From positions 1,596,541 to 1,660,540 of the forward strand of contig NZ_CP050965.1 in NCBI RefSeq assembly GCF_012273215.1: a stretch of 64,000 nt of DNA. Reading direction: 5' to 3'. Below the pieces are notes generated by a model. That model ran no database searches. It was not told the DNA's origin and was given only the letters and a program-made list of their open reading frames with translations. The translations under genes were made by a program, and so were the position numbers. Origin of the DNA: Gemella haemolysans (GTDB taxonomy: Bacteria > Bacillota > Bacilli > Staphylococcales > Gemellaceae). Numbering within the stretch: the stretch's first letter is position 1; each line of letters starts with the position of its first letter. This document shows positions 4,329-23,698 of the stretch, in pieces.

Positions 4329-4686
4329 CAATCTCCCCTCCCATTATTCATTCAAATTACTTTTTCATCTCTTCTTTAAACTCATACTTCAATAAACTAA
4401 AAAGTAGGAATAACCTTTCCAATATTAAAGAAACTAGAACATCATAAACTTATAATTGTTCCATCACTAAATTACTTCACATAGCTCTCTAGAGAGTTAG
4501 TAATACTCTATTTTAGTATCAATAAACTATCCAAAACTATATTTACTAATATTATAATTATTTAACAACCCTAACCTCTCTTATAAACATCATTTAAAAG
4601 TTATTCCCACTTAAATTAATATTTAACTTATATTATCTTCTTATTTCTAATGTTTAATTAATAATAATTTTACCCTTTTTTATATT
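4329..4686. other. Intergenic region between grdD and the permease
   Basis: About 350 AT-rich bases without a supported gene. It holds the permease ribosome site, presumably its promoter, and a 16-base near-palindrome at 4483-4498 (AGCTCTCTAGAGAGTT) that could be an operator. No T-box specifier or T-box motif was found, and no strong terminator for the grd operon. Confidence 0.4.
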
Positions 4687-5826: not shown

Positions 5827-5836
5827 AGTATCACCC

Positions 5837-7360: not shown

Positions 7361-7416
7361 AGCTATTGTGTGCTGAGGGTAAGATACCTACCCTCAGCTC
7401 CCCTTTCTTTTATTTT

Positions 7417-8724
7417 TTATTCGAATACTGTTTGACTATCTACTTCAACAGTTAAAGCATGTAATGCTTTTTCTACAAGACCTCTTCTTAGTTTTTTCTC
7501 TTCATCCGCATCTAATTTAGGATTTCCTAATGGGTGAGGAATTGCTATAGTAGGTACGATTCTGTTCGCTCCTACTGTTAGAGAAATCGGTACTACTGTA
7601 CACATGTGAACCACAGGTATACCCGCTCTCTCTATTTCTTTTACCATCGTTGCACCGCAACGAGTACAAGTACCTCAAGTAGAAGTTAAAATTACAGCAT
7701 CTACTCCATCAGCTACTAATTTTTGTGCATATTCTTTTGCAAATCCTACTGCACTAGCAACGGCTGTACCATTACCTACAGTTGTATAGAATTTTTCATG
7801 TAAACTTCCAATTTTACCTTCTTTGACGAAATCTCTCATTACATCAACTGGTAATACTCTATCTGAATCTTCATTAGCATACACTGGGTCATATCCACCG
7901 TGAGCTGTTTCATGAGTTTCGGCAGTTAAATCGTTAAATCCTTCTAATGAGTATTCCCCATATTTAGAAGCTGAAGATGATTCAATGTGATCTGGGTTGC
8001 CTTTTGGCACGATTCCTCCAGAAGTTACTAAGGCGATTTTAGCTTTAGTTAAATCTTTAACCGCTGGATTTGGTTCTACTCTATCGAAGTTAGGCATTGG
8101 ATATTCTGTTTCAAATTCTTCACCTTTAATTTTCTTAACAAGCATTTCAACAGCACGTTCAGAACCACGTTTTTCACTAAAGAAGTTTACACGAACTCCT
8201 CTTTCGTGGTATCCTTCTTCTTTTGGAGATAATATTTCTTCTCCTTTAGCTAATTTCGCTGCGAATTTAGCTAATTTTGGTAAAGCTTTTCTCATTCCTG
8301 CAGCACTATCAGATGTTTCAAGAATATAAACTTCTTTTCTAAACATATCTGTACCAGGGTTTTCTACATACATAGCTGTTACCGCTGGAATATGAAGTTC
8401 GTCTTGAACAGCTTTAGTAATAGTTCCTGCTGCAACTCCATAACGTCCCGCATTAAAAGCTGGCCCTGCGATAAATAGTTGAGGATCATATCCTTTAATC
8501 ATATCAATAAGTTCTACTTGAACTTTTTCTAAATTTTCATTGAAGTAGCTATCTCCACAAACTACTGTAGCTACTACTTCGAATTCTTCTCCCAACTTGC
8601 CTTGTAACTGAACACTAATAGGTGGTAATTCAGTTCTTAATTCTGGTGCAATGTGGGCTTTTTCTTCTCCACCTACTCCGGCGAAGAATTGGTTTATATA
8701 ATGTACTACTCTTATTTTAGACAT
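7417..8724 (-). CDS. grdB: Glycine/sarcosine/betaine reductase component B selenoprotein (GrdB), UGA read as Sec
   Basis: 435 residues when the in-frame UGA at 7675-7677 is read as selenocysteine 350. The sequence runs ILTSTU-GTCTRCGATMVKEI, the canonical GrdB active site; stopping at UGA would remove 85 conserved residues. The N-terminus VVHYINQFFAGVGGEEKAH is diagnostic. With GrdE it forms the substrate-binding component B, which activates glycine via the pyruvoyl group of GrdE and passes the carboxymethyl group to GrdA. A 7-bp hairpin starts 12 nt after the UGA (see SECIS entry). The close paralogue GrdF handles sarcosine; the glycine assignment rests on operon context and riboswitch control. 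Confidence 0.95.
7647..7663 (-). promoter_or_regulatory. Putative SECIS hairpin of grdB
   Basis: On the transcript, TCGTTGC-GGT-GCAACGA forms a perfect 7-bp stem with a three-base loop, beginning 12 nt downstream of the selenocysteine UGA. Bacterial SECIS elements lie at this kind of distance and are read by SelB. SelB recognition here is inferred. Confidence 0.6.
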
Positions 8725-8760
8725 TTTTATTTCCCCCTATATTGTTATTCAGACAATAAA

Positions 8761-9222
8761 CTACTCTCCACGAACGTCTTTCATTTCGCTTGCGATTTCA
8801 TCTACGTCTAATACCATTTCCATCATTCCTACTTGATCTTCATAGATTGCTTCATCTATTTGTGATTTAATTTCTTCTTCTACAATGTGATATACAGCTA
8901 GATTAAGTTCTACTCCAGCAAGTGGTCCTGCGAATGTTGGATCTCCCACTGTTACAGTTTCAGCTGCTAGACCAGCAGCTTCGGCTTCTGCAGCACCTAG
9001 TAAAACCACAACGTTTTCGTTACCGAATTTTTCGGCAGCTTCTTTAATACGTTTTTGGTTTTCTAAGTCCATAGCCCCTGCAGCCGTTCAGACAAAACAC
9101 TCAGTAGATGAAAATACTACTTCTAATCCCTCAATTGGTTTTACACATTCTTCTATAGCTAATCCTGGAATCCCATCACGGTCACCAATGATAACTACTT
9201 TTTTATTAATAAGATTTACCAT
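8761..9222 (-). CDS. grdA: Glycine reductase component A selenoprotein (GrdA), UGA read as Sec
   Basis: 153 residues with selenocysteine at position 45 (UGA at 9088-9090). The motif [15 protein letters not shown] is the hallmark of GrdA. Starting after the UGA leaves only 103 residues and loses the redox centre. The ATG at 9222 has GGAGG at the right distance (AAGGAGGAATAAGATAATG). GrdA is the small acidic carrier: its selenol accepts the carboxymethyl group from component B, hands it to component C, and is regenerated by thioredoxin, whose gene is two genes upstream. It lies 44 bp after grdE and 36 bp before grdB. Confidence 0.97.
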
Positions 9223-9266
9223 TATCTTATTCCTCCTTGTTCAAATCTATAACATTTATTTTTTAA

Positions 9267-10553
9267 TTAGAAAGTTTTGGCACTTAAGTAACCAAATCCA
9301 GTTTCGTTAGTAGCACCTGTAATAGCTTGGATTTCTACTTCGATAGTTCCATCTTCTCTTAATGAATCTTGGTTACCACCAGCAATTACGTTTACTACAT
9401 CAATGTGTCCTATAATTTTATCTAGTTTTGGTAATACTACTACTTGGTTAGCATTTCCACCTGTAACTACAGCATTAGCCGCAACATCAGCGTCAGCTAA
9501 ACTTTGGCTAGCTCCATCACGACCTGCATATTCATCTGTTACGATAACAGTTTTAACTTGTTCCGCTTCAATTTTTTTACAGTTCATAATTAAGTCAGTA
9601 TCTGGATTACCAAATCCTTCTTGAGATACGATTACCGCATCTAAGTTTAAGTAACGACAAAGTTTTGCTGTCCAGTTAGACGAACGTTCTTTATCCATTA
9701 AATAAACATTTTCATTAGTAATTATTACACCTAAGAAGTTAATTTCTTTACCATGTTTTTTATATAGGTCTTCAATAACTCCATTGTTTAAGTGTACATA
9801 AGTTGGGTTTTTATCACATGCCGATACACAGTTACCACTTACAATAGCACCATCCATGACTTCTGTTGGATATAGGATAGTTGGTACTATTTGTTTTGCA
9901 TCAACACCGTATACATAAGTATCATGTAATAGTCCTTGAGTTTGAAGCATGTATACATATCCTACTTTTGGAAGATCTGGATATTCAGCAATTTGTTCTA
10001 ATAGCGGTTTTGTTTCATACACTTCTACTTCTTCGGGTTCTAATGTACGAGCTAATTCTGCAATATATCTTGCAGCTTTAAATCCGATATAACGAACTGC
10101 TTTTTCATGTTCATGTTGTTTAATTCCTTCTTTTGGTTCAGCTATAACGATTAGGTTATTTGTTTTTGAAAATGGAGTATATTCAGCTCCAACACCTGTC
10201 ATATCGATGATACCTTCTTGGAATCCTACTATTTTACCAGTAGTTACAACAGCCATACCTTTAAGGGCGATAGTGCGTCCTTCTCCTACAGTATCTACTT
10301 TTGAAAGTATACCAGGGAATATTCCACCACGTCCTTCAACTTTTACACGAGGTTCAATTACATCCTTAACCGGAGTAATACGAACACTTTCACCAGGACG
10401 AGCAATTTCTAAATCAACAGATTCAATTGCATCATCCTCAAAAACAGCTTTTACAAGCTCTTCTTTATTTACATATAATACATTTGCCTCAATTTTTGAT
10501 TCTGCAGCAAATTGTATATCTTTAATATGAATCTTTCCTAATTCAAGACGCAT
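9267..10553 (-). CDS. grdE: Glycine reductase component B proprotein (GrdE)
   Basis: 428-residue proprotein that self-cleaves into beta (N-terminal) and alpha (C-terminal) chains. Cleavage occurs before a cysteine that becomes the substrate-binding pyruvoyl group: VSGNCVSACDKNPTY, with Asn241-Cys242 by my count, the position established for clostridial GrdE. The pyruvoyl forms a Schiff base with glycine, which GrdB then reduces. Length and ends match the family (MRLELGKIHIKDIQFA start). Second half of the B component; between trxA and grdA in the operon. Confidence 0.95.
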   Translation of the reverse strand: MRLELGKIHIKDIQFAAESKIEANVLYVNKEELVKAVFEDDAIESVDLEIARPGESVRITPVKDVIEPRVKVEGRGGIFPGILSKVDTVGEGRTIALKGMAVVTTGKIVGFQEGIIDMTGVGAEYTPFSKTNNLIVIAEPKEGIKQHEHEKAVRYIGFKAARYIAELARTLEPEEVEVYETKPLLEQIAEYPDLPKVGYVYMLQTQGLLHDTYVYGVDAKQIVPTILYPTEVMDGAIVSGNCVSACDKNPTYVHLNNGVIEDLYKKHGKEINFLGVIITNENVYLMDKERSSNWTAKLCRYLNLDAVIVSQEGFGNPDTDLIMNCKKIEAEQVKTVIVTDEYAGRDGASQSLADADVAANAVVTGGNANQVVVLPKLDKIIGHIDVVNVIAGGNQDSLREDGTIEVEIQAITGATNETGFGYLSAKTF

Positions 10554-10579
10554 ACCTAATACCTCCCTTTGAGTTAATT

Positions 10580-10897
10580 TTAATAATATTTTTTAATCAT
10601 AGCTTCAATATTAGGAATAGTTGCATCGTCTTTAGTTACTTCTTCGACTTTGCTACCATCTTTATATATCGCTAATGTTGGTAACCCTAAAACTTTTTGT
10701 TTAATAGCAAGTCTTCTTGCTTTTGTTGTATCTAGAGATGTGAATTTGATTTTATCTCCATATGTTTCTGCCAATTTGTGTACATCAGGCATAAGAGCTT
10801 TACACGGTTCACAACCTTGGCTCCAGAAGTCTACAAACACATATCCTTCTGCTTCCAATACTTCTTGTTCAAAGTTTTCTTTATTAAGTTCTAACAT
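10580..10897 (-). CDS. trxA: Thioredoxin of the glycine reductase operon
   Basis: 105 residues, thioredoxin fold, with redox motif [15 protein letters not shown] (Cys29 and Cys32) instead of the usual WCGPC. The GCEPC variant is typical of thioredoxins encoded inside grd operons. It would re-reduce GrdA and the other components after each turnover, taking electrons from the adjacent TrxB. Strong ribosome site (AAAAGGAG) upstream; 26 bp before grdE. Confidence 0.92.
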
Positions 10898-10933
10898 TTT
10901 CTTTTTCTCCTTTTGTTATTTTATTTTTAAATT

Positions 10934-11878
10934 TTATTCAAATTTCTCAGCAATATATTTTTCAGCGCGAATCGCTGCTACAGCTCCGTCTGATACCGCA
11001 GTAACTACTTGACGGATATCTTTAACACGACAGTCACCAGCTACAAATACACCATCTACATTTGTTCTAGTATCTTCACCAGCTTTAATGTATCCATCTT
11101 CTGTCATTTCAACTTTTCCTTCAAATAATTTTGTTTGAGGAATGTATCCGATAAAGAAGAATAATCCCATTGTTCCATCTTCTTCGTCAGCTTCAATTAC
11201 ATATTCTTCACCAGTTATTAAATTTTTCAATCTAATAGCTTCTAAAATACCATCTCCAATTGCTTCTGTAACTACAGTATTTCCTAAAATTTCAATTTTT
11301 GGATTGTTTTTAGCTTTTTCTGCAGTAACTTTTTCACAACGAACATTTTCTCTACGATATACAATTGTTACTTTACGAGCAAATTTAGTTAAGAATAAAG
11401 CTTCTTCCACAGCACTATTAGCTCCACCAACTACATAAACATCAAGCCCTTCAAAAAAGTCACCATCACAAGTTGCACAGTAAGAAATACCTTTACTTTC
11501 TAACTCTTTAATTCCTGGTGCATCTAATTTTCTTGGAGACGCTCCTGTAGCAATAATTACTGTTTTAGCAGTATAATCACCACTTACGCAAGTAACTACT
11601 TTTTCATCTCCCTCAAGTTCAACATTAAGAACTTCATCTTGTTTTATTTCAGCTCCGAAACTCTTAGCTTGTTCAACCATTCTTGCTGTTACACGAGGTC
11701 CTGTTGGATCTTCCACCGCTCCAGGGTAGTTTTCAATTAAGTGCGTAATCGCAGCTTGTCCCCCATTTTTAGATTTTTCAAGAACCAAGGTACTTAATTT
11801 CGCACGTGAAGCATACAAAGCAGCAGATAAACCAGCTGGTCCTGAACCTATAATAATTACATCATAATGTCTACTCAT
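10934..11878 (-). CDS. trxB: Thioredoxin reductase (NADPH)
   Basis: 314-residue flavoprotein. It shows the N-terminal FAD-binding motif IIGSGPAGLSAALYASRA, the redox pair SYCATCDGDFF, a second dinucleotide-binding motif VVGGANSAVEEALFL and the C-terminal VFVAGDCR of low-Mr thioredoxin reductases. It carries reducing power from NAD(P)H to the TrxA encoded next to it and so into glycine reductase. Located 24 bp after grdX and 36 bp before trxA, as in clostridial grd operons. AAAGGAGAATAATT precedes the ATG. Confidence 0.95.
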   Translation of the reverse strand: MSRHYDVIIIGSGPAGLSAALYASRAKLSTLVLEKSKNGGQAAITHLIENYPGAVEDPTGPRVTARMVEQAKSFGAEIKQDEVLNVELEGDEKVVTCVSGDYTAKTVIIATGASPRKLDAPGIKELESKGISYCATCDGDFFEGLDVYVVGGANSAVEEALFLTKFARKVTIVYRRENVRCEKVTAEKAKNNPKIEILGNTVVTEAIGDGILEAIRLKNLITGEEYVIEADEEDGTMGLFFFIGYIPQTKLFEGKVEMTEDGYIKAGEDTRTNVDGVFVAGDCRVKDIRQVVTAVSDGAVAAIRAEKYIAEKFE

Positions 11879-11902
11879 AATTATTCTCCTTTTATTTATT
11901 AT

Positions 11903-12271
11903 TTATAAAATTCTATTTATCGCATTTATTATTAAATCATGATCGATGACACTAAAATCATCTTTTACTCTATCAGTCCACTGAGGCACTTCTCTATTAT
12001 TTCTAAATTTTTTAAATGTTAATACCGCATCTGAGATTAAATTAACCGACGTTATATCCAAAGAATTATTTTCTTTTATGACAATCGTCCTATAAATCGT
12101 TTCATTTGGTTTCACACTACCATAAAGAGGATGTGTTACTATCTCCCAGTTTTCATGAACATAGTCTCTTACCTTTCTTAAGATATCTATATAACTCACA
12201 TCTAAATACTCAATTTCTATATCTTTTAAGTTCTCCTCAATAAATTTTGGATTGTTAGTTATTAGTTTCAT
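11903..12271 (-). CDS. grdX: GrdX family protein
   Basis: 122-residue soluble protein of unknown biochemical role, recognised by its start MKLITNNPKFIEENLKDIEI and its place as first gene of a glycine reductase operon, where GrdX proteins characteristically occur. No catalytic motif or membrane segment is visible. The ATG at 12271 has TAGGAGGAG upstream, directly after the terminator of the riboswitch leader. It is therefore the first gene made when glycine is present. Confidence 0.82.
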   Translation of the reverse strand: MKLITNNPKFIEENLKDIEIEYLDVSYIDILRKVRDYVHENWEIVTHPLYGSVKPNETIYRTIVIKENNSLDITSVNLISDAVLTFKKFRNNREVPQWTDRVKDDFSVIDHDLIINAINRIL

Positions 12272-12283
12272 GTTACTCCTCCT

Positions 12284-12324
12284 AAAAAATAAAAAACAGA
12301 AAGAAAGTTAGCTTTCTCCCTGTT
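12284..12324 (-). terminator. Riboswitch expression-platform terminator of the grd operon
   Basis: In the minus-strand transcript AACAGGGAGAAAG pairs with CUUUCUUUCUGUU over 13 positions (two G-U), loop of four, then a U-rich run. It lies between the glycine aptamer and grdX, so it is the off-state terminator that glycine binding would prevent. Confidence 0.85.
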
Positions 12325-12440
12325 GTCTCGCTTCAGAGTTCTGTCCTAGTATGGTCTTTTTACCTGAGAATTTCATTAATATTTGCCAAATATTAACTTG
12401 TACCTTCGGTGTCTTGCGTCCTCTCCCACACTACTCTTAC
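12325..12440 (-). ncRNA. Glycine riboswitch (gcvT-type aptamer) upstream of grdX
   Basis: Reading the minus strand: GTGGGAGAGGACGC, then ACACCGAAGGTACAAG, a hairpin around AATATT, AATTCTCAGGTAAAAAGACC, then CAGAACTCTG. These are the conserved blocks of glycine aptamers (GGAGAG, CACCGAAG, CTCAGGTAAA-GACAGA). I see one clear aptamer; the second of the usual tandem pair is not evident. The intrinsic terminator directly downstream makes it a transcriptional ON switch for glycine catabolism, which fits a grd operon. Confidence 0.88.
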
Positions 12441-12451
12441 AGTATATTTCC

Positions 12452-12480
12452 TTATATTTTTATTTTATACTATTTCTCAA
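12452..12480 (-). promoter_or_regulatory. Likely sigma-A promoter of the grd operon
   Basis: TTGAGA (12475-12480) and ATATAA (12452-12457) on the minus strand with a 17-bp spacer, placing the start of transcription just ahead of the glycine aptamer. Confidence 0.5.
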
Positions 12481-12756
12481 ATAAATTAAAACGTTTTCTT
12501 AAGCGTTATAGTTGGTTCTCTAAAATATCTTAGCATAAAGATTTACATAAAATATAATTAATTTTTAAGAAACCTCATTTTTAAGCTTTTGTATTTTAAA
12601 ATATAAAAAATATATTAATTTTTTTGATGTACCATTTTTATAATGTTAATGAATCATAGTATTGCAAATACAATATATATGATTTATATAAATACATAAC
12701 AAATAATATAAATATGAAAATAATTCGAATGTTTTTCAAGTAATTGAAAGTTTCCA

Positions 12757-12785
12757 TTGAAAAATGTTGTTATTTTCGTTATACT
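12757..12785 (+). promoter_or_regulatory. Sigma-A promoter of rarD
   Basis: TTGAAA (12757-12762), 17-bp spacer, TATACT (12780-12785), about 45 bp ahead of the rarD start. The rest of 12481-12756 is AT-rich and holds nothing else I can support. Confidence 0.7.
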
Positions 12786-12831
12786 TAATTTACTATAAAG
12801 TAAATAAATCTATTTTAAAAGGAGGATTATT

Positions 12832-13749
12832 ATGAATAATACTCAAAAAAGTTTAGTAGCTATTCTTATTTGTTACTTTTCCTGGGGACTCTTCCCCATA
12901 TATTTTAAACTGCTAAAAAGCATAGGTGCATATGAAGTTTTAGCAATGCGAATTCTATGTTCATTTATTTTTATGATTTTAGTAGTAGGAATTGCTAAAA
13001 ATAAGAAAACTATTTTTGAAGAAATAAAAAAAATCTGGGATAACAAAAAAAGTTTTTTACTACTAGTTCTAGCTTCGTTTTTAATTACTGGAAACTGGCT
13101 AACATACATAATCGCAGTAAATACTAACCACGTATTAGAAGCAAGTTTTGGATATTACTTAAATCCAATCGTTACAATTATCTTAGCTGTAGTATTTTTA
13201 AAAGAAAAACTAACTCGTACACAGACTATAGCTTGTCTTTTTGTTGGTGGTTCACTATTATACTTATTTATCTCATTAGGGTCTCTACCTTGGATATCAA
13301 TCATGCTTGCATTGACATTTGGACTTTATAGTTTATGTAAAAAGAAAATTATACTTAGCCCTAAAGCAAGCTTACTAATTGAAACTGCAATAGTATCTCC
13401 AATAGCAATAATCTATATGGGTTATCTAGCATCAAATAATTCTGTAACATTCCATACTTTTGGAACAGACACACTAATTTATCTATTATTATCTGGTGTC
13501 ATTACAGCTGTGCCTCTAATGTTATTTGCTAAAGGAGCAACGGATATCCCTCTATATATGTTAGGAATTTTACAATATTTACCACCTACAATGCAATTTT
13601 TCATCGGAATTTTTGTTTATGGGGAAGAATTAAGTGTTCAAAAATTAATATCATTCTCAATAATTTGGGTGGCAGTTGCAGTCTTCTGTTATTCTGCAGT
13701 TGTATCAATGAAAAAACAAAATTTAGTTAGTGAAAGTCACAAAAAGTAA
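12832..13749 (+). CDS. rarD: RarD-type EamA/DMT transporter
   Basis: 305 residues with about ten membrane segments; the start SLVAILICYFSWGLFPIYFK is typical of RarD proteins in the drug/metabolite transporter superfamily. Physiological substrate is unknown for the family. A textbook ribosome site AAAGGAGG precedes the ATG and a good promoter lies upstream. It is monocistronic, between the divergent grd operon and the convergent prd operon, with a shared terminator at its end. Confidence 0.85.
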   Translation: MNNTQKSLVAILICYFSWGLFPIYFKLLKSIGAYEVLAMRILCSFIFMILVVGIAKNKKTIFEEIKKIWDNKKSFLLLVLASFLITGNWLTYIIAVNTNHVLEASFGYYLNPIVTIILAVVFLKEKLTRTQTIACLFVGGSLLYLFISLGSLPWISIMLALTFGLYSLCKKKIILSPKASLLIETAIVSPIAIIYMGYLASNNSVTFHTFGTDTLIYLLLSGVITAVPLMLFAKGATDIPLYMLGILQYLPPTMQFFIGIFVYGEELSVQKLISFSIIWVAVAVFCYSAVVSMKKQNLVSESHKK

Positions 13750-13764
13750 AAATTTCTAAAACAC

Positions 13765-13800
13765 AAAAAGCGAAGTTTGATTTCTCAAACCTCGCTTTTT
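13765..13800. terminator. Bidirectional terminator between rarD and the prdDEF unit
   Basis: AAAAAGCGAAGTTTGA pairs with TCAAACCTCGCTTTTT around a TTTC loop, with A and T runs on either side. It ends rarD (+) and the prd operon (-). Confidence 0.9.
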
Positions 13801-13809
13801 ACTTTTATA

Positions 13810-14691
13810 TTAAGCTGCTTTTTTAAGCCCTTTTCTCAACATATCAAATCCTGTAATTACTACTACTACAATAATTAGCCATAACAAGCTATTTAATGAT
13901 AGAGAAGTAATAAATTGGTATCCAACGATTACCCCAATAATTCCCCCTATAGTTAATCCTATAGTACCTTTTCTTGGGTATAATCCTTCTTTAATAAACT
14001 TAGGTGAACCAATCGCCATAAGAGCTGCACAAGATCCCATCATAATTGGGAATGCTGCTTTTGGATCCATTCCTAATAATGAAACCATAGCTAAACATGG
14101 TGCATAAAGACCAACTCCTGCCATCATCAATGCTCCAAAGATAAAGTTACCTACAACACCTACTACAAGAGCAATTCCTGTTAAGTGTAATGCAGTATTA
14201 TTAGCACCAAGAAGAGCTAACCATCCCATTTTACTAGCAAACATTAATCCTGCAGTAATAAGTAATGCAAATCCCATTACAACTTGAATTTTTTTCTCTG
14301 GTAATTTCGTTACTATACGTCCACCAATTAAAGCTCCAACAACAGCTGAAACAATCATTGATAATAAAGTAACAGCATCAACTTTTACAGATTGAATGAA
14401 TAAGAATGCTTCGATTAATACTGGAATAGTGTGACCGATATTTAACGTCCCTGGTAATAATCTGTCATTTTTAATAAATCCTGTTACTTTTGCTAATAAT
14501 GTTGTTGGTGCAAAACTACCAATACCTAATGTATCCATGAAGTCTGTAACGAAACCAATTACAAATCCAACGATTGGATTAGAATCTTCGCCTACTTCAC
14601 CTTTATTTTTAATAATATCTAACGCCCACATCACTACGAAATATAGTGCTGACAGCCCTAGTAATGTTAATAATATCGTTACTAAGTTCAT
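13810..14691 (-). CDS. TauE/SafE (TSUP) family permease of the prd operon
   Basis: 293 residues, about eight membrane segments, with internal similarity between the two halves as in TSUP (sulfite exporter TauE/SafE) proteins. It begins 13 bp after prdF, so it is the last gene of the prdD-E-F unit. TSUP carriers move small organic or sulfur anions; here export of the product 5-aminovalerate or uptake of proline are contextual guesses. No soluble domain and no frame damage. Confidence 0.75.
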   Translation of the reverse strand: MNLVTILLTLLGLSALYFVVMWALDIIKNKGEVGEDSNPIVGFVIGFVTDFMDTLGIGSFAPTTLLAKVTGFIKNDRLLPGTLNIGHTIPVLIEAFLFIQSVKVDAVTLLSMIVSAVVGALIGGRIVTKLPEKKIQVVMGFALLITAGLMFASKMGWLALLGANNTALHLTGIALVVGVVGNFIFGALMMAGVGLYAPCLAMVSLLGMDPKAAFPIMMGSCAALMAIGSPKFIKEGLYPRKGTIGLTIGGIIGVIVGYQFITSLSLNSLLWLIIVVVVITGFDMLRKGLKKAA

Positions 14692-14704
14692 ATAATTTTC
14701 TCTC

Positions 14705-15724
14705 CTATCCTAATAAGAATCCGTATGTAAGTGAATCATCTGGATCATAAACATAGTTACTGAATCCTAAGATGTAACCAGAACCTGTAATTTCTGGGAT
14801 AATAGCATCGAAGTCTGCTAATTTACGTTCTTCAACAATTCTACCTTTGAATAATGTACCTAAAATACTTTCGTAAACAAAAGGTTCACCTGGTTTTAAT
14901 TCACCTTTTGCATATAATGTAGCTAATTTAGCTGAAGTACCAGTTCCACAAGGTGAACGGTCAATATTTCCATCACCAAATACTACAACATTTTTGAATG
15001 TAGCTTCTGGGTGAGATGGTTTATCATAAATTTCAACTAAGTCTACAGTTTTAATGTGAGCTAATGTTGGGTGTTGAATTTCAATATTCGCATTAATTGC
15101 ATCACGAATTTTTAATCCAGCATCTTTTAGTTTAGAAGCATTTTCTGGTTTAACTTCTAAACCAAGTTGGTCTGCAGAAATAATACAGAAGAAACTTCCA
15201 CCAAATGAGATATCAAATTTAACGTGTCCTACTCCTTCTACATCAAGTTCTACATCACGTTTGTATAAGAATGACTCAACGTTTCTAAATGAAACTTCTT
15301 TTACTTTAGTTCCATTGTCTTTTAATTTAGCAGTTGCATAAATTAATCCAGCAGGTGTTTCTACAACAACTTCTTTTTCAGTAGCACCTTCTTCAACATC
15401 TACCATACCTGTTTCTACAGCTGCTGTAACAGCTGCGATAGTGTTGTGTCCACACATGTTTAAGTAACCACCAGTATCCATGAATACTAGTCCAAAATCA
15501 GCTTCTTCTTTTGTTGGTGGTAATAAGAATGCCCCAAACATATCTTGGTGTCCACGCGGTTCAAACATTACTGATTTTCTTACGTCATCAAGATGTTCGA
15601 TGAAATATTGTTTTTTCTCAACCATATCTTTACCAGGAATTTTTGGAATTCCTGCTGTAACTAAACGAGCAGCTTCTCCTGCTGTATGTGTATCGATAAC
15701 TGAAATCATTTTATTTAGTTTCAT
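14705..15724 (-). CDS. prdF: Proline racemase (PrdF)
   Basis: 339 residues. Converts L-proline to D-proline, the true substrate of proline reductase. Both catalytic cysteines are visible: Cys91 in GGYLNMCGHNTI and Cys259 in NIDRSPCGTGTSAK. The substrate-binding start ISVIDTHTAGEAARLV matches the family. Cytosolic; length normal. It follows prdE by 30 bp in the same transcription unit, with GGAGTGAATTATT ahead of the ATG. Hydroxyproline epimerases are related, but the prd context settles the assignment. Confidence 0.95.
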   Translation of the reverse strand: MKLNKMISVIDTHTAGEAARLVTAGIPKIPGKDMVEKKQYFIEHLDDVRKSVMFEPRGHQDMFGAFLLPPTKEEADFGLVFMDTGGYLNMCGHNTIAAVTAAVETGMVDVEEGATEKEVVVETPAGLIYATAKLKDNGTKVKEVSFRNVESFLYKRDVELDVEGVGHVKFDISFGGSFFCIISADQLGLEVKPENASKLKDAGLKIRDAINANIEIQHPTLAHIKTVDLVEIYDKPSHPEATFKNVVVFGDGNIDRSPCGTGTSAKLATLYAKGELKPGEPFVYESILGTLFKGRIVEERKLADFDAIIPEITGSGYILGFSNYVYDPDDSLTYGFLLG

Positions 15725-15754
15725 AATAATTCACTCCTTAATTATTGCCTTTTG

Positions 15755-16228
15755 TTATTTGTTATTTGCATCTTGTCTCATTTTAAGTTTTAATAATGCC
15801 AATGCCTTTCTAGCATCAGTATAATCAATATTATTTTGACAAACTATTTCTGTTTCTACACCTTCTTCAGATTTATTAAAATCTAAAACGAACTTCGTGT
15901 ATTGATTTTCAACTACAAATTTATGTTTACCCATAAATTTTAGTCCTACGATAGAAATTCCACGCTCTCCTATTTCAAACATAGTATTAGCATAGTCAAC
16001 ATCACTATTTCCCCAACCATCCGCTGAGATAATAGCTCCATCAGTTCTCATTGCTTCTAACCATGTTGCAGCTCGCCATCCAACTAAATGTTTTAATCGA
16101 TTATCCTGCGGCGTTCCTACTACAATTACCCCTTGAAAGTCGATATCAGGATCTTCCGCTAGTACATCTAATAATGGATCTCTAAAGTGGTGTAAGCTTG
16201 TTTCTTTTGTAGATGGTCCAATACCCAT
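15755..16228 (-). CDS. prdE: Proline reductase-associated protein PrdE (PrdA alpha-like)
   Basis: 157 residues aligning with the C-terminal (alpha) half of PrdA: GIGPSTKETSLHHFRDPLL against PrdA CIGPASKETSRHYYREPLV, then VIVVGTPQDN, DGAIISADGWGNSDVDYANT and a KALALLKLKMRQ tail. Its first residue is Met where PrdA has the pyruvoyl-forming Cys, so it cannot make that cofactor. Gap to prdD is 14 bp. Precise function is not established; a structural or accessory role with PrdD is inferred. Confidence 0.85.
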   Translation of the reverse strand: MGIGPSTKETSLHHFRDPLLDVLAEDPDIDFQGVIVVGTPQDNRLKHLVGWRAATWLEAMRTDGAIISADGWGNSDVDYANTMFEIGERGISIVGLKFMGKHKFVVENQYTKFVLDFNKSEEGVETEIVCQNNIDYTDARKALALLKLKMRQDANNK

Positions 16229-16242
16229 AATAACACCTCTTT

Positions 16243-16980
16243 CTATACCATTGCTCTTATAGCGCCATCACGATATTCGTTAGCTGTTAGTAGCACTGGC
16301 ATATTGTTCATATCTATAATAGAAATACCTTTATCTATTCCACTAGGTTCTATTGGGAATAACTGATTATCATACATCATCCCTTGTCCTGCAACTTCCT
16401 TAACTAAAGCTACTTTAGGTTTTCCAGGATTTTTTGGATTATAAAATTCGTGAACTTCATCAGCATCACGTCCGCTAAGAACTTTCATCACTTCTCGTAT
16501 ATTTTGTAAATATACATCTGATAATTCAAAAATAGAAAATGCTAAAGCTCTATCAAAATCCACGTCTGATTTAATAATAACATCAATATGTATTAAATAA
16601 TCACTGTCAGCTGGTGATCCCGCTTTATTTAGCACAAGTTGTTCTTTAAGAATACCTTCTGAAGAACCAAATTCATGCATTTGTTCACCTTTAGTATTCG
16701 CACCTGTTAACAACATATATACCCCTGTTAAAGTATGCGTAATCCCTTCACCAAGTCTTCCTAAAACCTTTGTAGATATAGGAACTATATCCATTATAGT
16801 ATTCACATAAAAATCATGTTCACGAGGTTTAATTATTTTCACCTCTACACTTTCAAAAATATTTTTATCATATTCAATCTCTGTTGGAATAATAAGTTCA
16901 TTGTTTTCAATTTTCACTTTTTTCCCTAAAACAACATTTTTCATATGAAATGCTTTTATTTGCAATCTCTCTTTTGACAT
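16243..16980 (-). CDS. prdD: Proline reductase-associated protein PrdD (PrdA beta-like)
   Basis: 245 residues resembling the middle region of PrdA just before its cleavage site: TGVYMLLTGANTKGEQMHEF, FGSSEG, VALVKEVAGQGMMYDNQLFP, and it ends at ANEYRDGAIRAMV, where PrdA reads ILDGGIHALT-C. A TTG at 16989 opens the frame, but AAGGGA lies 9 nt before the ATG at 16980, which I take as the start. First gene of the second prd unit (prdD-E-F-permease), separated from prdB by a terminator. Confidence 0.86.
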   Translation of the reverse strand: MSKERLQIKAFHMKNVVLGKKVKIENNELIIPTEIEYDKNIFESVEVKIIKPREHDFYVNTIMDIVPISTKVLGRLGEGITHTLTGVYMLLTGANTKGEQMHEFGSSEGILKEQLVLNKAGSPADSDYLIHIDVIIKSDVDFDRALAFSIFELSDVYLQNIREVMKVLSGRDADEVHEFYNPKNPGKPKVALVKEVAGQGMMYDNQLFPIEPSGIDKGISIIDMNNMPVLLTANEYRDGAIRAMV

Positions 16981-17008
16981 AACTATCAATCCCTTACTAT
17001 TTTATTTT

Positions 17009-17022
17009 CTGTATTAATACAG
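17009..17022. promoter_or_regulatory. Perfect palindrome in the prdD upstream region
   Basis: CTGTATTAATACAG, a 14-base perfect palindrome 29 bp upstream of the prdD start, in the only place where a promoter for prdDEF could lie. It shares TGTAT/ATACA half-sites with the palindrome at the prdC promoter, though with different spacing. Operator function is inferred. Confidence 0.45.
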
Positions 17023-17055
17023 TATGTAAGTTGTTTACTAGTACAGATATTTCAT

Positions 17056-17087
17056 CAAAAAAGAAGAGGGACACCCGTCCCTCTTCT
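17056..17087 (-). terminator. Terminator after prdB
   Basis: AGAAGAGGGAC pairs perfectly with GTCCCTCTTCT around ACCC (17062-17087). In the minus-strand transcript it is followed by a run of six T. It splits the prd genes into two transcription units. Confidence 0.92.
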
Positions 17088-17097
17088 GATATTTCTC

Positions 17098-17823
17098 CTA
17101 CACGTGAGCAATATACTCAAATGGAAGAGGAACTATTTTACCTGAACTTGGTATTTTAATTAGTTGCTCTAATGTTGCTTTTAGAATTTGTGTTTGTTGC
17201 TCAACGTTTCCTGGTTCCCCAGCGTTAGCACCCATTGGTACAAGTGGTGCAACGGCTCTAGGAGTACCGTTTTGACGCACTACTGGAGGTAGTGCTGCTA
17301 TTAAGATTGTTGGAATACCTGCTTCCTCAATTGCTCTCTGCACGATCACGGCAGTTCTGTGACAAGTACCTCAACCAGCAGTTAAAATAACTGCATCAAC
17401 ATTTTCTTCTTTTAATTTTTTAGCAATCGCTGGTCCTGTAGAGTTTGTGAAAGCCTCTTGGTCTCCACCACCACCCATGAAACCATAGTGGAATTCTGCT
17501 ACACTACCGATGAATCCTTCTTTTGCAAGTTCGTGTAATCTATCGATTGGGAACATACAGTTGATGTCTTTGTTAGCATCAGCGTTATCATATCCACCGT
17601 GTGATACCATAAGATCTGTACTGTGAGCAGTATCTGGGATTTCACGGAATGTAGTATCCCCTGCTAAGTTAAATCTTTTATCTGTTTTTAAGTGAACTCC
17701 TGCTGCTGTAGCTAATGCTACTTTCATATCTTTTAACTCTTTAGTTACTGGAGCCCAAACTGGTTTTGGTGTAATAGGTACAAAAATTTCTGATTGTAGA
17801 CCTTCAAATATCGTTAATGACAT
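17098..17823 (-). CDS. prdB: D-proline reductase selenoprotein PrdB, UGA read as Sec
   Basis: 241 residues with selenocysteine at 151 (UGA 17371-17373) in ILTAGUGTCHRTAVIV, directly comparable to the GrdB site TSTUGTC. Translation stopping at the UGA would cut off 90 conserved residues (IEEAGIPTILIAALPPVVRQ and onward). PrdB is the gamma subunit; its selenol attacks the C-alpha-N bond of D-proline bound to the PrdA pyruvoyl, yielding 5-aminovalerate. Third coding step after prdA, followed by a strong terminator. Confidence 0.95.
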
Positions 17824-17841
17824 TCTAATTTCTCCTTCCTA

Positions 17842-18129
17842 CTATTCTTCATTTAGTCTGTTTTTTACTTCTTCTTGTAATTTTTTTGTGTTTAATATTG
17901 CATTTACATAATGTTCGTCAGGTTCTTCGTTTATAACTTCTGGATAACTTAGTAAAAATGCTACCTCTTGGCCAATTTTTACTGGATAATCAGAAATTAA
18001 CATTCTCATAGGAATTTTAAATTGCCCTAAGCGTCCTTTAATGTCTATCGTAACGCTGGCGTCGTTATGATCAACTATAATCCCTTCGAACACTCTTTCT
18101 GTAGATGCATATTTTAATTTTTCAATCAT
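17842..18129 (-). CDS. Small conserved protein between prdA and prdB
   Basis: 95 residues, soluble, no cysteine. Predicted beta-rich core (FEGIIVDHNDASVTIDIKGR, LGQFKIPMRMLISDYPVKIG) and a charged helical C-terminus, suggesting a small barrel-like fold. I recognise it only as the short protein often found between prdA and prdB in proline reductase clusters; its function is unknown. Gaps of 26 bp to prdA and 18 bp to prdB show it is cotranscribed and probably made in step with the reductase subunits. Confidence 0.7.
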   Translation of the reverse strand: MIEKLKYASTERVFEGIIVDHNDASVTIDIKGRLGQFKIPMRMLISDYPVKIGQEVAFLLSYPEVINEEPDEHYVNAILNTKKLQEEVKNRLNEE

Positions 18130-18155
18130 AACTTATTTCCTATCCTCTTTAAAAA

Positions 18156-20087
18156 TTAATCTTCTTTTTCGTAGATTTCTTGACGTTTTTTAGATTTTGG
18201 TAATACTTGTTCGTTATCAAGTAATTCTACTTTTTGTCCTGTAGTTTTTTCAATAACTTCTATGTTATTTAATTTAACGTTAGGATTCCATTTTCTTTCA
18301 GCTTTTTTAATTGTTCCGCCACCCATTTGTGTTTTAAGCATTGCTAAAGCACGGATAGCATCTTCTTTACATAATGTATTGTTTGAAAGAATTTCGTTTT
18401 CAATACCTTGTTTAGATTTGTTGTTATCAACCATAGCTTTCATGTATTCGTTACCTACTACAAGGGCACCTTGTACTGCTGAGTAAGTCATACCAACTAC
18501 TGATACTCCACGTTTACCGATTTCTTCAATGTGAGAAGCGAAGTCGATGTGGTTGTTACCAAATCCTTCAGTTGTTACGATAGCACCATCGATGTCCATT
18601 GCTTCGATAGTCATACCTACACGTTTAGATACATAGAATTTTTCTGAGTTAGCTTGAGGTGATCCAACTAATAATACCCCTACTAAGTCGATTTCTTCAT
18701 CAGCCATTGCTTCAAGTACTAATGGTTCACGGTAATAGTGACGAGAAGTTTCTTTAGAAGCTGGTCCAATACAAGTTAATGCGTGGATACCACCGTCTAA
18801 GATTTCTGTTGGTGCAAGCATTACTGGTAGGTTACCAAGGTCTACGTTTGGTTTAGCACCAAGTGTTCCAACTGGTTCTACCGGTAAAATTAAGTTATCG
18901 TGCATAGCACCTTGTCCCATGATTTCTTTAACGATTAATACTTTTTTGTTTCCTGGATGACGATATTGTTCAATATTGATGTTTCCAACTACTAGGCTTT
19001 CATCGTCTAATTCTTTAAGAGCTTTACGAATTTCTTCTGTAATGTGGTCGAATGCTTTGTGAGCTGCTAATGGTCCTGGACGTTCCATGTTAGCTCCTGC
19101 TTTAATTGTAACTTGACCTTTAATGAAGATTTCACCTTTATCTGGAGCTCCTGGACGACCCCACATAATGTTACGTTCTAATTCACCTTCAGAAGAACCG
19201 AATTCCCCGATTTGAACTCCGTTAGCATCAGTTCCTGTAAGAACCATTACTACACCTTTTAGTTCACGAGTAACCCCGTGTCCGATTTCTCCTTCTTCTT
19301 TAACAGCGATTGGTTGAACGTCCATGATTGTTTCACTGTAAGTGTCATATTGTTCAGGAGTGATAATTTCTAATTTAACACTTTCTACTAAAGCTTCTGA
19401 TTCAGCAGCTTCTTTACATAAATCTTCTGCTGTTCTTAAAACTAAAGTAGTTCCTTTAATTTCTGTTTTTTCACCAAATTCTACTTTATCAATTTTGTAG
19501 TGTTTAGTGTGTAGAGAACGAATAAATTTAGGTTCTCCTTCGTGTTTTTCTTCCACTTTTGCTGCTACTGCTTCTGCTTTTGCTGCTTCAACAGCTTTAG
19601 CTTCCACTGCTTGAACTGGAGCTTGTGCTACTGGAGCTGCTTGTCCACCGATAGCTGCTAATGGAATTTCAAGGTTAATGTTTTCACCTTTTCCGATTTG
19701 TAGTTTTAATACTCCTGCTGGAGCTTGTACTTGAGCTACCGGCGTAACCGGAGCAACAGGCGCAACTGGTGCGCTAACTTCAGCTACTGGAGCCTCTACT
19801 ACTTCTTCTTTTTCTTCTGCTTTTTCTTCTCCACCTTGTACGGCATCAATGATACCTGGTGTAATAGGTATTAGAGCGTCTGTTGTTTTTAATAATTTAG
19901 CTCCTAATACTTGTCCGATTGTTAATGCATCATCTGGGAATGATAATAATCCTGAATCTACTAGATCATCGAATAATCCTGGATCTTCTAAGTTTTCTGG
20001 ACTAATTACGATACCTTCCTCAGCTCTGCAACAAAATACCGCTTTATCATTTAAGTGCTCTTTTGCAGTTTCTACTGTAATTGACAT
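18156..20087 (-). CDS. prdA: D-proline reductase proprotein PrdA
   Basis: 643-residue proprotein. Cleavage before Cys439 (HALT-CIGPASKETSRH) yields the beta chain and a 23-kDa-class alpha chain whose N-terminal pyruvoyl binds D-proline. Layout: N-terminal domain (1-85), a long Ala/Pro/Val/Glu-rich linker (about 86-185) like a swinging arm, the reductase beta core (190-438) and alpha core (439 to end) ending in a charged tail. The linker probably gives flexibility but is less conserved. It lies 20 bp after the prdC stop when the PrdC selenocysteine extension is included. Confidence 0.96.
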   Translation of the reverse strand: MSITVETAKEHLNDKAVFCCRAEEGIVISPENLEDPGLFDDLVDSGLLSFPDDALTIGQVLGAKLLKTTDALIPITPGIIDAVQGGEEKAEEKEEVVEAPVAEVSAPVAPVAPVTPVAQVQAPAGVLKLQIGKGENINLEIPLAAIGGQAAPVAQAPVQAVEAKAVEAAKAEAVAAKVEEKHEGEPKFIRSLHTKHYKIDKVEFGEKTEIKGTTLVLRTAEDLCKEAAESEALVESVKLEIITPEQYDTYSETIMDVQPIAVKEEGEIGHGVTRELKGVVMVLTGTDANGVQIGEFGSSEGELERNIMWGRPGAPDKGEIFIKGQVTIKAGANMERPGPLAAHKAFDHITEEIRKALKELDDESLVVGNINIEQYRHPGNKKVLIVKEIMGQGAMHDNLILPVEPVGTLGAKPNVDLGNLPVMLAPTEILDGGIHALTCIGPASKETSRHYYREPLVLEAMADEEIDLVGVLLVGSPQANSEKFYVSKRVGMTIEAMDIDGAIVTTEGFGNNHIDFASHIEEIGKRGVSVVGMTYSAVQGALVVGNEYMKAMVDNNKSKQGIENEILSNNTLCKEDAIRALAMLKTQMGGGTIKKAERKWNPNVKLNNIEVIEKTTGQKVELLDNEQVLPKSKKRQEIYEKED

Positions 20088-20107
20088 TACTTCTAACCTC
20101 CAACTAA

Positions 20108-21427
20108 TTATTTATTATTATGTAATTCTAAGCTTTTATAGCTTCTGTATAAATGATGGTCAGTGGCACGAAGCACATGATCGGTACTATGATAAACTTT
20201 TACTCCTAACCTAGGAGCTACACCTGTCACGGTGTTAGTTCAATCTTGACAAGTACCAGTGATAACTGCTTTCGCACCATCTTTTTTCATTTTCAATACT
20301 TTTTCCGCTTGTCCTGGACAAATACCAGGTAATTCGCAACGTAGTCTTCCATTTTTATCAGGTTTCATACGTTTACACATTTGAACAGATACTACTTCTG
20401 CACCCATGCCATCAGCTATTTGTCTCAAGCGTTCTTCTTGTGCTCCACATTCACAAATAAGTATTCCTACTTTTTCTTTTTCTTGTGGATATGGCATTGC
20501 TACAAGTAACCCACCTGTTGTTTTGTTGATTGGGTCTGTTTCTAATGCAGGACGTCCTGTGAATGGACCACCGCGCACTATTTCTCCGTGTGGATTAATA
20601 TAACCACCAGCTTTTTCTATAAATACGCTTATTGGTAATCCAATTGGTACATCTAAGAAAATACCAGGATTTTGAACACGACCACCAACAGTAATATCTT
20701 TATCAATAAGTGGTTTGTCTTCTTCAATCGCTTCTACTATACGTTTGATAGTTTCTACATTTGAAATGATTGCATTTGCTTCTAGTGGCAATTGACCTGG
20801 TTTTAAGATTACACCAAGAGTTTCTCTTACGATAACTCTTTCGTCACCAGCAGGATACATATTAGGCAAAATTTTAATACTAATATTAGGCTCATTTTTA
20901 CATACTTTACCTAATGCTAGTAGTGCTTTACGATATTTTGTTTTAATAGCAATGTATCCTTCTTTCGCACCAGTTAATTCAACTATGTATTTTAAACCTC
21001 TAACTAAAACTTCTGGATGATCTTCCATGAATTTTACGTTGTGACCTAAAATTGGTTCACATTCTGCTGCATTGGCAATAACATATCCTCCAGGGATTTG
21101 TGCAGATAACTTAATTCCAGTTGGGAATCCAGCTCCACCAACTCCAACGATACCAGCATCTTTAATTTTTTGAAGTTTATCATCAGTTTTCTCTAATCTA
21201 ACATAGTCATCAGTTTGTTCTTTATCTAATTTAACAACAATTTCCATGTCATTAACTTCTTCTACTACACCTGATAAACTAGTGTGAATATTTGCCCCTA
21301 GCCCATTGGGAGTTGCAACTAGTTGACCACGTTTAACATGATCACCAACATTTACAATTGGTTGACAAGGGCCACCAACGTGTTGTTTAAGGGGGATATT
21401 GATTTTTTCAACATTAAACTCTAACAT
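20108..21427 (-). CDS. prdC: PrdC, RnfC-like electron-transfer selenoprotein, UGA read as Sec
   Basis: A call ending at 20240 gives 395 residues and stops at UGA, but the same frame continues 43 codons to TAA at 20108: TGTCQDU-TNTVTGVAPRLGVKV. This makes a CxxU redox motif (Sec396) and a 439-residue protein that ends 20 bp before prdA. The N-terminal half resembles RnfC (HVGGPCQPIVNVGDHVKRGQ; GIVGVGGAGFPTGIKLS), an NADH/FMN module. It also has further Cys motifs (ILICECGAQ, CELPGICPGQ). PrdC is thought to deliver electrons to proline reductase. AAAGGAGG precedes the ATG. Confidence 0.9.
20220..20235 (-). promoter_or_regulatory. Putative SECIS hairpin of prdC
   Basis: On the transcript ACACC-GTGACA-GGTGT starts 4 nt after the selenocysteine UGA: a 5-bp stem with a six-base loop, close enough to be part of a bacterial SECIS. 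It also lies within a reading frame that continues, supporting readthrough. Confidence 0.45.
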
Positions 21428-21492
21428 TCCATTTTTCCTCCTTTCTTTAAAATTTGTTTACAAGCAGTAGTTCCAAACTTCTACTACATTTA

Positions 21493-21521
21493 TTGTATAA
21501 CAGTATACAACTTTTTGTAAA
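21493..21521 (-). promoter_or_regulatory. prdC promoter with overlapping palindromic operator
   Basis: TTTACA (21516-21521) and TATACA (21494-21499), 16 bp apart on the minus strand. The 18-base palindrome TTGTATAACAGTATACAA (21493-21510; seven-base arms) covers the spacer and -10, an ideal repressor position. The regulator is unknown; no prdR gene lies in the window. Confidence 0.55.
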
Positions 21522-21926
21522 GATTTATTTTATTAAAAAAACAATATATATTTAAATTTTTTTATATAAATACTACGTTTTTCATACAGAATGTTAGTAA
21601 AAAAGGATTTTCATTCTAATTTTTTTTAGACTTTTTATTTATTCAAATTATGTACAATTGAAAATAGTTATCAATTTACATAATCTCATAAACTATAACA
21701 ATGTATACATTTACACATATAACAACATTTTATTAATTATATAAAAAATATCTATTAAGTATAGATGTTTCTGTCATACTTATGTACTAAAATCGTATAA
21801 AACAAGTATTTAAAACACTTTTTTATATACTTTAAATAATTACATGTTATACTACCAATACCAAATTTCTCTATATATCTGTATTATAGAAGATGTATAG
21901 AGAAGTTTATTTTTTAATTACAAAAA
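21522..21926. other. Long intergenic region upstream of prdC
   Basis: About 400 very AT-rich bases with no supported ORF. It contains a 12-base palindrome AATGTATACATT at 21700-21711 that shares the TGTATACA core with the prdC operator and might be an auxiliary site. No riboswitch motif is recognisable. Confidence 0.35.
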
Positions 21927-22207: not shown

Positions 22208-22289
22208 ATGGGAGTGGCTCAAAAATCGTGATTTCGAAGAAATGATATGTACCCCTTTTACTGGACAAACCAGTGAAAGGGGTATTTTT

Positions 22290-22874
22290 ATGCGTTATAG
22301 TTTTGAATTTAAAGTAAAATGTGTTGAGATGTATGAAAGAGGGGAATATCCAGATACACCTAACGGAATAACCACTAGAAAATTTAAAGATACTATTAGA
22401 AAATGGAAAAGAATGGTTGATTCGTTAGAAGTAAGTGTCTTGCGACATAAAACAAAAAATAAGAAGTGGAATCCAGAAGAAAAACTAGTATTAGTTTCTA
22501 AAATTTTAGCTGGTTATTCATATAATTCCGTTGCACTAGACAATGGAATTAACTATAGGACACTGTATAAATGGGTTCAAAAATATAAGGAAAAAGGTTA
22601 TAATGGACTTGTAGATGAGAAGAAAGAAAGACCAAGAAAGGTACCTATCATGAAAGAAAACAGTAGTCCTAAACCATTAAAAGAATCAGAAAGAGAAGAA
22701 TTAATTAGATTACGTGCAGAAAATAAATTTATAAAAACGGAAATCGAAAATATTAAAGCGGAAAAAGAAATAATAAAAAAATTAATAGCCTTGAGGCGAG
22801 AAAAATGGGCTGCGCAACTCAAGGCGAAAAAGCAGCAATCATCAAAGAACTTAGAAAAAAAGGATATCAATTAA
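22290..22874 (+). CDS. IS3-family transposase OrfA
   Basis: 194 residues from the ATG at 22290, which has AAAGGGG upstream; the frame is open further left into the terminal repeat, but that start is unsupported. Contains two helix-turn-helix blocks (EFKVKCVEMYERGEY; YNSVALDNGINYRTLYKWVQ) that bind the IS ends, and a lysine/glutamate-rich coiled coil at the C-terminus (LIRLRAENKFIKTEIENIKA). It overlaps orfB by 70 nt; a fused OrfAB is made by frameshifting. Confidence 0.9.
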   Translation: MRYSFEFKVKCVEMYERGEYPDTPNGITTRKFKDTIRKWKRMVDSLEVSVLRHKTKNKKWNPEEKLVLVSKILAGYSYNSVALDNGINYRTLYKWVQKYKEKGYNGLVDEKKERPRKVPIMKENSSPKPLKESEREELIRLRAENKFIKTEIENIKAEKEIIKKLIALRREKWAAQLKAKKQQSSKNLEKKDIN

Positions 22875-23698
22875 AATGCCTTTTACAAGAAATAGGAATG
22901 GCAAAATCAACGTATTATTATTTAGTAAATAAGGAAGAAGTAGATGTTGAGGCTATTCGTAATGAACCAGTGTTAAAAGAAATTAAAATTATTTTTACCG
23001 AAAATAAAGGACTATATGGTGTCCGTAGAGTTCACAATGAACTAATTAATAGAGGTTTTAAAGTAAATCATAAACGAGTACAAAGTCTTATGCATAAAGA
23101 AGGATTGAAAGGGAAAACTCCTAAAGAAAGATACCATTCATATAAGGGAACAGTAGGAAAAGTCGCTAATAATATAATAAATCGAGATTTTAGTACGACT
23201 GCTCCTTTACAGAAATGGACTACAGATGTATCACAATTCAATTTTTCATGGGGAAAGTGCTATTTTTCAGCGATTCTAGATATGCATACAAATGAAATAA
23301 TATCATATGATTTATCTTTACATCCAAATTTAGATCAGATAAAAAGGATGTTAGAACAAGCATTTAATAAATTTCCAAATACAGAAGGATTAATTATGCA
23401 TTCTGATCAAGGGTGGCAGTATCAACATTCACACTATAGAAGTGAGTTAAAAAAACATGGAATCATTCAATCGATGTCTAGAAAGGGAAATTGTTATGAT
23501 AATAGTATCATGGAATCACTTTTTGGAAGAATGAAGACGGAGATATATTATGGTTATGAAAAGGTTTATATGTCATTTGAAGAGTTTAGTAAAGCTGTAT
23601 CTGAATATATAAATTATTACAACAACAAGAGAATTCAATCAAAAACAAAATGGATGCCTCCTGTACAATACAGGATAACATCCACTTGTCTAAATTAA
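22805..23698 (+). CDS. IS3-family transposase OrfB (DDE integrase core)
   Basis: 297 residues as an open frame; it is expressed mainly as a -1 frameshift fusion with OrfA. Retroviral-integrase-type DDE core: WTTDVSQFNF (first D), MHSDQGWQYQH (second D) and GNCYDNSIMESLFGRMKTE (catalytic E). Preceded by the HTH_21-like GLYGVRRVHNELINRGFKVN. Identical in protein sequence to the copy at 44626-45519, so transposition was recent or the copies are still active. Confidence 0.93.
   Translation: MGCATQGEKAAIIKELRKKGYQLKCLLQEIGMAKSTYYYLVNKEEVDVEAIRNEPVLKEIKIIFTENKGLYGVRRVHNELINRGFKVNHKRVQSLMHKEGLKGKTPKERYHSYKGTVGKVANNIINRDFSTTAPLQKWTTDVSQFNFSWGKCYFSAILDMHTNEIISYDLSLHPNLDQIKRMLEQAFNKFPNTEGLIMHSDQGWQYQHSHYRSELKKHGIIQSMSRKGNCYDNSIMESLFGRMKTEIYYGYEKVYMSFEEFSKAVSEYINYYNNKRIQSKTKWMPPVQYRITSTCLN
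22856..22862 (+). other. Programmed -1 frameshift heptamer A-AAA-AAG
   Basis: A run of seven A followed by G places A AAA AAG exactly in the slippery frame of orfA (codons AAA AAG), inside the orfA/orfB overlap. Slipping back one base continues into orfB (RKKGYQLK). Confidence 0.75.

Follow-up and report, generated by a model that had tools for sequence, protein, structure and literature searches.

Adjoining clostridial-type proline and glycine reductase operons with in-frame UGA codons in Gemella haemolysans

Results

Gene content of the locus

The window, which is the whole stretch of 64,000 nucleotides of Gemella haemolysans DNA analyzed here, contains a D-proline reductase (prd) module and a glycine reductase (grd) module separated only by rarD (Table 1). 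The prd genes are arranged in the order prdC-A-X-B-D-E-F-tauE, where X is a CBO2463-domain small protein, and the grd genes in the order grdX-trxB-trxA-grdE-A-B-C-D, preceded by a glycine riboswitch and its terminator-like hairpin. A first-pass annotation of the same DNA had proposed two complete Stickland reductases, and both modules are indeed full at this site. The range given there (8761-21427, 13 kb) was too short: it misses grdB, and the grd operon reaches position 4687. The two operons together occupy 4687-21427, approximately 17 kb.

PrdA, PrdB, PrdC, and PrdD exceed the curated cut-offs within one operon, and UGA codons are found in the UxxC motif of PrdB and the CxxU motif of PrdC. 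The TCIGPASKET region of PrdA is expected to give rise to the pyruvoyl subunit. The small protein between prdA and prdB is conserved at that position in nearly all relatives. The glycine reductase set is also complete, with GrdA (CxxU), a glycine-type GrdB (UxxC), GrdE, GrdC, and GrdD. For GrdB, the profiles of the sarcosine and betaine forms both score under their cut-offs. The permease gene downstream of grd occupies the same place in three Gemella genomes (G003, G004, and G005), and its product is a possible amino acid importer of the grd module.

Table 1. Positions of the features of the prd-grd site (window coordinates unless a locus is named)
Feature	Position	Strand	Evidence
Amino acid permease downstream of grd	2958-4331	-	APC family; BcaP is the best match, with 535 bits (below its cut-off of 690)
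grdD, component C subunit alpha (acetyl-phosphate release)	4687-5826	-	NF040747 584 bits, cut-off 350
grdC, component C subunit beta	5837-7360	-	NF040746 783 bits, cut-off 450
grdB, selenoprotein B	7417-8724	-	TIGR01917 (glycine-specific) 799 bits, cut-off 602
SECIS element directly 3' of the grdB UGA	7637-7674	-	Rfam RF01990 SECIS_4, 66.2 bits, E 1.4e-13
grdA, selenoprotein A	8761-9222	-	NF040748 259 bits, cut-off 130
grdE, glycine reductase component B proprotein	9267-10553	-	PF09338 707 bits, full length
trxA, clostridial-type thioredoxin	10580-10897	-	NF047697 173 bits, cut-off 140; position of C. difficile trxA3 (PMC10880999)
trxB, grd-operon thioredoxin reductase	10934-11878	-	TIGR01292 345 bits, cut-off 343; position of C. 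difficile trxB3 (PMC10880999)
grdX	11903-12271	-	NF038093 129 bits, cut-off 40
Terminator-like hairpin (13 bp) with a U run, between the riboswitch and grdX	12284-12324	-	Fold of 12264-12440
Glycine riboswitch aptamer upstream of grd operon	12342-12438	-	Rfam RF00504 49.8 bits, gathering 32; also in L003, L005
rarD, between the modules, part of neither	12832-13749	+	TIGR00688 217 bits; stays when either module is absent
TauE/SafE-family transporter of prd operon	13810-14691	-	PF01925 56 bits, cut-off 32.6
prdF, proline racemase	14705-15724	-	Best NCBIfam match proline racemase 513 bits, just below cut-off 556; synteny
prdE, resembles C-terminal part of PrdA	15755-16228	-	Matches PrdA profile 415-565; synteny
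prdD	16243-16989	-	TIGR04482 368 bits, cut-off 320
prdB, catalytic selenoprotein	17098-17823	-	TIGR04483 404 bits, cut-off 300
CBO2463/CBO2479-domain small protein of prd operon	17842-18129	-	NF041553 90 bits, cut-off 50
prdA, D-proline reductase proprotein	18156-20087	-	TIGR04480 989 bits, cut-off 700
prdC, selenoprotein, RnfC-like electron transfer protein, C-terminal CQDU	20108-21427	-	TIGR04481 597 bits, cut-off 490; Pfam RnfC_N and Complex1_51K
Second prd clusters (Cys PrdB, CTGGCGTCHR)	L143 8004-13695; L144 8436-14127; L145 7967-13663		PrdA keeps TCIGPA region

Four in-frame UGA codons

The coordinates of the four in-frame UGA codons in the first-pass annotation were exact to the base. 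All lie on the minus strand, at residue 350 of GrdB (7675-7677, TSTUGTC), residue 45 of GrdA (9088-9090, CFVUTAAG), residue 151 of PrdB (17371-17373, TAGUGTC), and residue 396 of PrdC (20240-20242, CQDU). The table 11 open reading frames (7675-8724, 8761-9072, 17371-17823, and 20240-21427) end or restart at each UGA; thus, standard gene calling breaks all four genes, as had been stated. When the UGA was read through, full-length GrdB (435 aa), GrdA (153 aa), PrdB (241 aa), and PrdC (439 aa) were obtained, and all four exceed their NCBIfam cut-offs. The putative selenocysteine (Sec) codons of Gemella fall at the Sec positions known from C. sticklandii (GrdA 44, GrdB 350, PrdB 152, and PrdC 392; PMC3091704).

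The broken gene calls are also what would be seen if the UGA codons were ordinary stops or sequencing errors in decaying pseudogenes. However, this explanation is scarcely credible, given how the frames behave after the UGA. In comparison with G. sanguinis, 23 synonymous and 5 non-synonymous differences were counted in the 85 codons after the UGA of GrdB, 30 and 5 in the 108 codons of GrdA, 7 and 3 in the 90 codons of PrdB, and 6 and 0 in the 43 codons of PrdC. Against other Gemella species, the differences after the UGA were likewise mainly synonymous in all four genes. Since the frame after each UGA stays under purifying selection, the four UGA codons are not due to chance, and the earlier description of an open, conserved frame is borne out. 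The same UGA codons are moreover shared by all Gemellaceae loci and many other genera: every Gemellaceae copy of the four genes that was examined keeps its UGA, the orthologous PrdB site is U in 80 of 80 named loci, and CxxU is present in all 28 Bacilli PrdC. Cysteine replacement in all close relatives had been named as evidence against selenoproteins; close relatives have UGA and no Cys codon at all four positions. A SECIS in grdB and a full Sec machinery in the genome, both described below, also speak against decay.

SECIS structures

Bacterial SECIS elements are short and degenerate. The clearest element follows the UGA of grdB (Table 1), and the UGA of prdC is followed by a strong hairpin (z -3.5) that is conserved in Gemellaceae. 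No structure above shuffles was detected after the UGA of grdA or prdB. When the 57 bases that follow the UGA were folded to a consensus, for 56 PrdB and 35 PrdC sequences, the signal did not rise above that of codon-column shuffles.

Selenocysteine machinery of the host genome

The host genome is complete, in a single contig of 2.08 Mb. The first-pass annotation had predicted a working Sec system elsewhere in it and had named the absence of selB and selC as contrary evidence; selA, selB, selD, and tRNA-Sec were all found in this genome. The sel operon (L099 15243-8523, minus strand) has the order selD, yedF, a small ORF, selB, a cysteine desulfurase family gene, and selA, and tRNA-Sec with the anticodon UCA is located at L100 5716-5812. 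Thus, the bacterial Sec decoding set of SelA, SelB, SelD, and tRNA-Sec(UCA) is complete. SelD itself possesses an in-frame UGA (CGGUNSK). Together with the four reductase UGA codons, the genome therefore contains at least five selenoprotein genes. Because a tyrosine recombinase gene (L099 15383-16486) is located directly upstream of selD, the sel operon may adjoin a mobile element.

Regulatory regions

The riboswitch matches RF00504 over the gathering score, is located upstream of glycine genes, and is accompanied by an expression platform. Glycine probably turns on the grd operon through the riboswitch and terminator, a direction that we infer and do not read from the fold.

The conserved sequence upstream of prdC comprises a putative sigma-A-like promoter (CTGTTATACAATAA) and a short leader that has AGTAG/CTACT arms. 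The AGTAG...CTACT leader (21428-21530) is also found in Gemella sp. GH3, divergent as it is. A Rex-like palindrome overlapping the promoter (21493-21510, TTGTATA-N4-TATACAA) was considered as a prdC operator and dropped, since it is absent in seven other Gemella loci. An IS3-family insertion element (22242-23698) lies approximately 0.8 kb upstream of prdC; in the closest strain (L155), the contig stops inside the element.

No credible sigma-54 activator that could serve as PrdR was found in the genome; the two activator-domain matches are weak and partial, in frames of 832 and 867 aa. PrdR-type control is therefore not expected. PrdR is a regulatory trait of C. difficile and does not define the D-proline reductase enzyme.

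Distribution in Gemella and other Bacilli

In Gemella, the order of the site is htrA-galU-[prd]-rarD-[grd]-permease-relA. The prd module is absent in G003 and G004, and the grd module is absent in G007, with the flanking genes in place. Across Gemella, the presence of one module at this site is independent of the presence of the other. GrdA was detected in 6 of 9 Gemella genomes, Sec PrdB in 7 of 9, and SelA in all 9. The site in the window is 95.3% identical over 20 kb to that of the closest strain (L155, genome G005), with the same gene content; L002 (G. haemolysans DP3_5B 174) has the same gene order and identities as L155. In G003, which has no prd module, the grd-operon trxB is broken up over three reading frames (L146 10819-11770), by decay or assembly error.

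In a tree of PrdC-PrdA-PrdB, all Gemella sequences fall into a single clade that adjoins Companilactobacillus (SH-aLRT 90), and both belong to a Bacilli group (100) that is separate from the Peptostreptococcales group. From this placement, the nearest relatives of the Gemella prd are other Bacilli. A grd operon beside prd was found only in Gemella when 10-kb flanks of PrdB loci were searched; in one Faecalimonas bin, such a flank contains a single grdD-like frame.

The host had been guessed to be a facultative mucosal coccus, for which a tie of energy metabolism to selenium would be remarkable. The guess is right for Gemella. Sec in Bacilli is less remarkable than had been supposed: SelA exceeds the cut-off in 86 of 398 sampled Bacilli genomes, and Enterococcus and Companilactobacillus have Sec PrdB and PrdC. 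GrdA was found in 7 of the 398. The Sec trait is thus fairly common in Bacilli and GrdA is rare. Among the sampled genomes of the same order, SelA exceeds the cut-off only in Gemellaceae, the family of the host.

Second prd clusters without Sec: In G001, G002, and G006, a second prd cluster with a Cys PrdB (TGGCGTC) is present in addition to the Sec cluster. The PrdC of the second cluster is without Sec, with the motif NCTDC, or NCTDF in G001, so that Cys or Phe replaces Sec. PrdA, PrdB, and PrdC of the second cluster of G006 pass the NCBIfam equivalog cut-offs. The Cys cluster may be a selenium-free proline reductase, or it may act on another substrate.

TauE partner of prd

In 70 of 72 loci from several orders, a TauE gene lies no more than 4 kb from prd, in 52 on the same strand. 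This near-constant position suggests a transport role for TauE in the pathway; the protein is a candidate 5-aminovalerate/proline transporter, perhaps for 5-aminovalerate release. TauE-family transporters are diverse, and two TauE lineages occupy this position in Gemella (59-64% versus 87% identity to the copy in the window), as might be the case if the gene were a chance neighbor with no part in proline reduction. We consider a chance neighbor unlikely, however, in view of the 70 loci that share the arrangement. The literature search found no paper that combines TauE with proline reductase.

G. bergeri has three TauE copies, the first of which shares 87% identity with the TauE of the window. 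The copy of the closest strain shares only 59% with that of the window and is 89-90% like the G. sanguinis and G007 copies. The sequences indicate that the TauE allele has been swapped, the site being otherwise 95% identical to that of the closest strain.

Discussion

Proposed function

We conclude with high confidence that Gemella carries a complete, probably functional pair of clostridial-type Sec Stickland reductases, whose translation, reactions, and physiological role are predicted from gene content. Anaerobic clostridia use proline reductase and glycine reductase for electron disposal and energy gain. By analogy, L-proline would be racemised by PrdF, and D-proline would be bound by the PrdA-derived pyruvoyl subunit, where the selenol of PrdB would open it to give 5-aminovalerate, with NADH electrons passing via the PrdC CxxU center to PrdB. 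Glycine would be bound by processed GrdE with GrdB, and GrdA and GrdCD would form acetyl phosphate, the electrons being supplied by the operon's own TrxB and TrxA. An acetate kinase gene is present in the genome, and its product could convert acetyl phosphate to ATP. Sec would be inserted at UGA by the SelA, SelB, SelD, and tRNA-Sec of the genome.

No member of the NqrB/RnfD/RnfE family was found in the genome. Because no Rnf was found, proline reduction is most likely a soluble NADH sink that is not coupled to an Rnf ion pump. Energy metabolism would depend on selenium supply.

How much the pathway matters to the cell is less certain. Each module is absent in some Gemella species that keep SelA, and a facultative coccus presumably has other energy routes. 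There is accordingly a substantial but lesser chance that the intact operons play a minor part, as a rarely used redox valve and not a main energy source, and that selenium hardly matters for growth. Against such a minor part, this strain has kept the two operons intact and under selection, together with a riboswitch and a dedicated thioredoxin system. Returning to the active pair of reductases, the broadest form of the proposal is speculative and, taken as a whole, doubtful: Gemella would use Sec almost only for Stickland reduction (SelD and the four proteins), so that the anaerobic energy metabolism of an Rnf-less facultative coccus would be selenium-dependent, some relatives would hedge with an all-Cys PrdABC, and the TauE-type transporter would export 5-aminovalerate.

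If the operons are active, a common mucosal opportunistic coccus gains the proline and glycine fermentation of clostridia, is tied to selenium supply, and is a possible source of 5-aminovalerate. Since prd and grd can each be present or missing without the other at one site, and Sec and Cys forms occur together in some species, Gemella offers a natural test bed for why Sec is kept.

Comparison with known systems

In the C. sticklandii model, NADH electrons reach the CxxU center of PrdC, which reduces the selenide-sulphide of PrdB, and glycine is reduced via TrxB, TrxA, GrdA, and GrdB (PMC3091704). The prdCABDEF genes of C. sticklandii and C. difficile belong to the same families as the Gemella prd, with Sec in PrdB. 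PrdC of C. sticklandii has Sec in CxxU as in Gemella (PMC3091704), whereas that of C. difficile has Cys where the Gemella protein has Sec. In contrast to clostridial prd, that of Gemella is accompanied by neither prdR or a credible sigma-54 activator nor an Rnf complex in the genome. The C. difficile grd operon (grdX, trxB3, trxA3, grdE, A, B, C, D) has the same genes, its own thioredoxin system, and an upstream glycine riboswitch (PMC10880999). Unlike it, the Gemella grd adjoins the prd operon at one chromosomal site, with only rarD between. Enterococcus and Companilactobacillus, whose PrdC-A-B are nearest to those of Gemella in the tree, share Sec PrdB, CxxU PrdC, and tauE at the end of the cluster; however, their loci examined have no grd genes in the 10-kb flanks.

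All four families are included in a review of the prokaryotic selenoproteome, where grdA-grdB and prdB-prdC are given as typical operons of selenoproteins (PMC13188914). Our literature search for selenocysteine or Stickland reductases in Gemella returned only incidental co-mentions and a paper on a Gemella proline racemase. All four families, the Sec positions, the CxxU PrdC, and the arrangement of riboswitch and grd are already known from clostridia. Apparently undescribed are the joint prd-grd site of Gemella, the absence of Rnf and of a PrdR candidate, the second, all-Cys prd cluster of three relatives, and the near-constant TauE partner.
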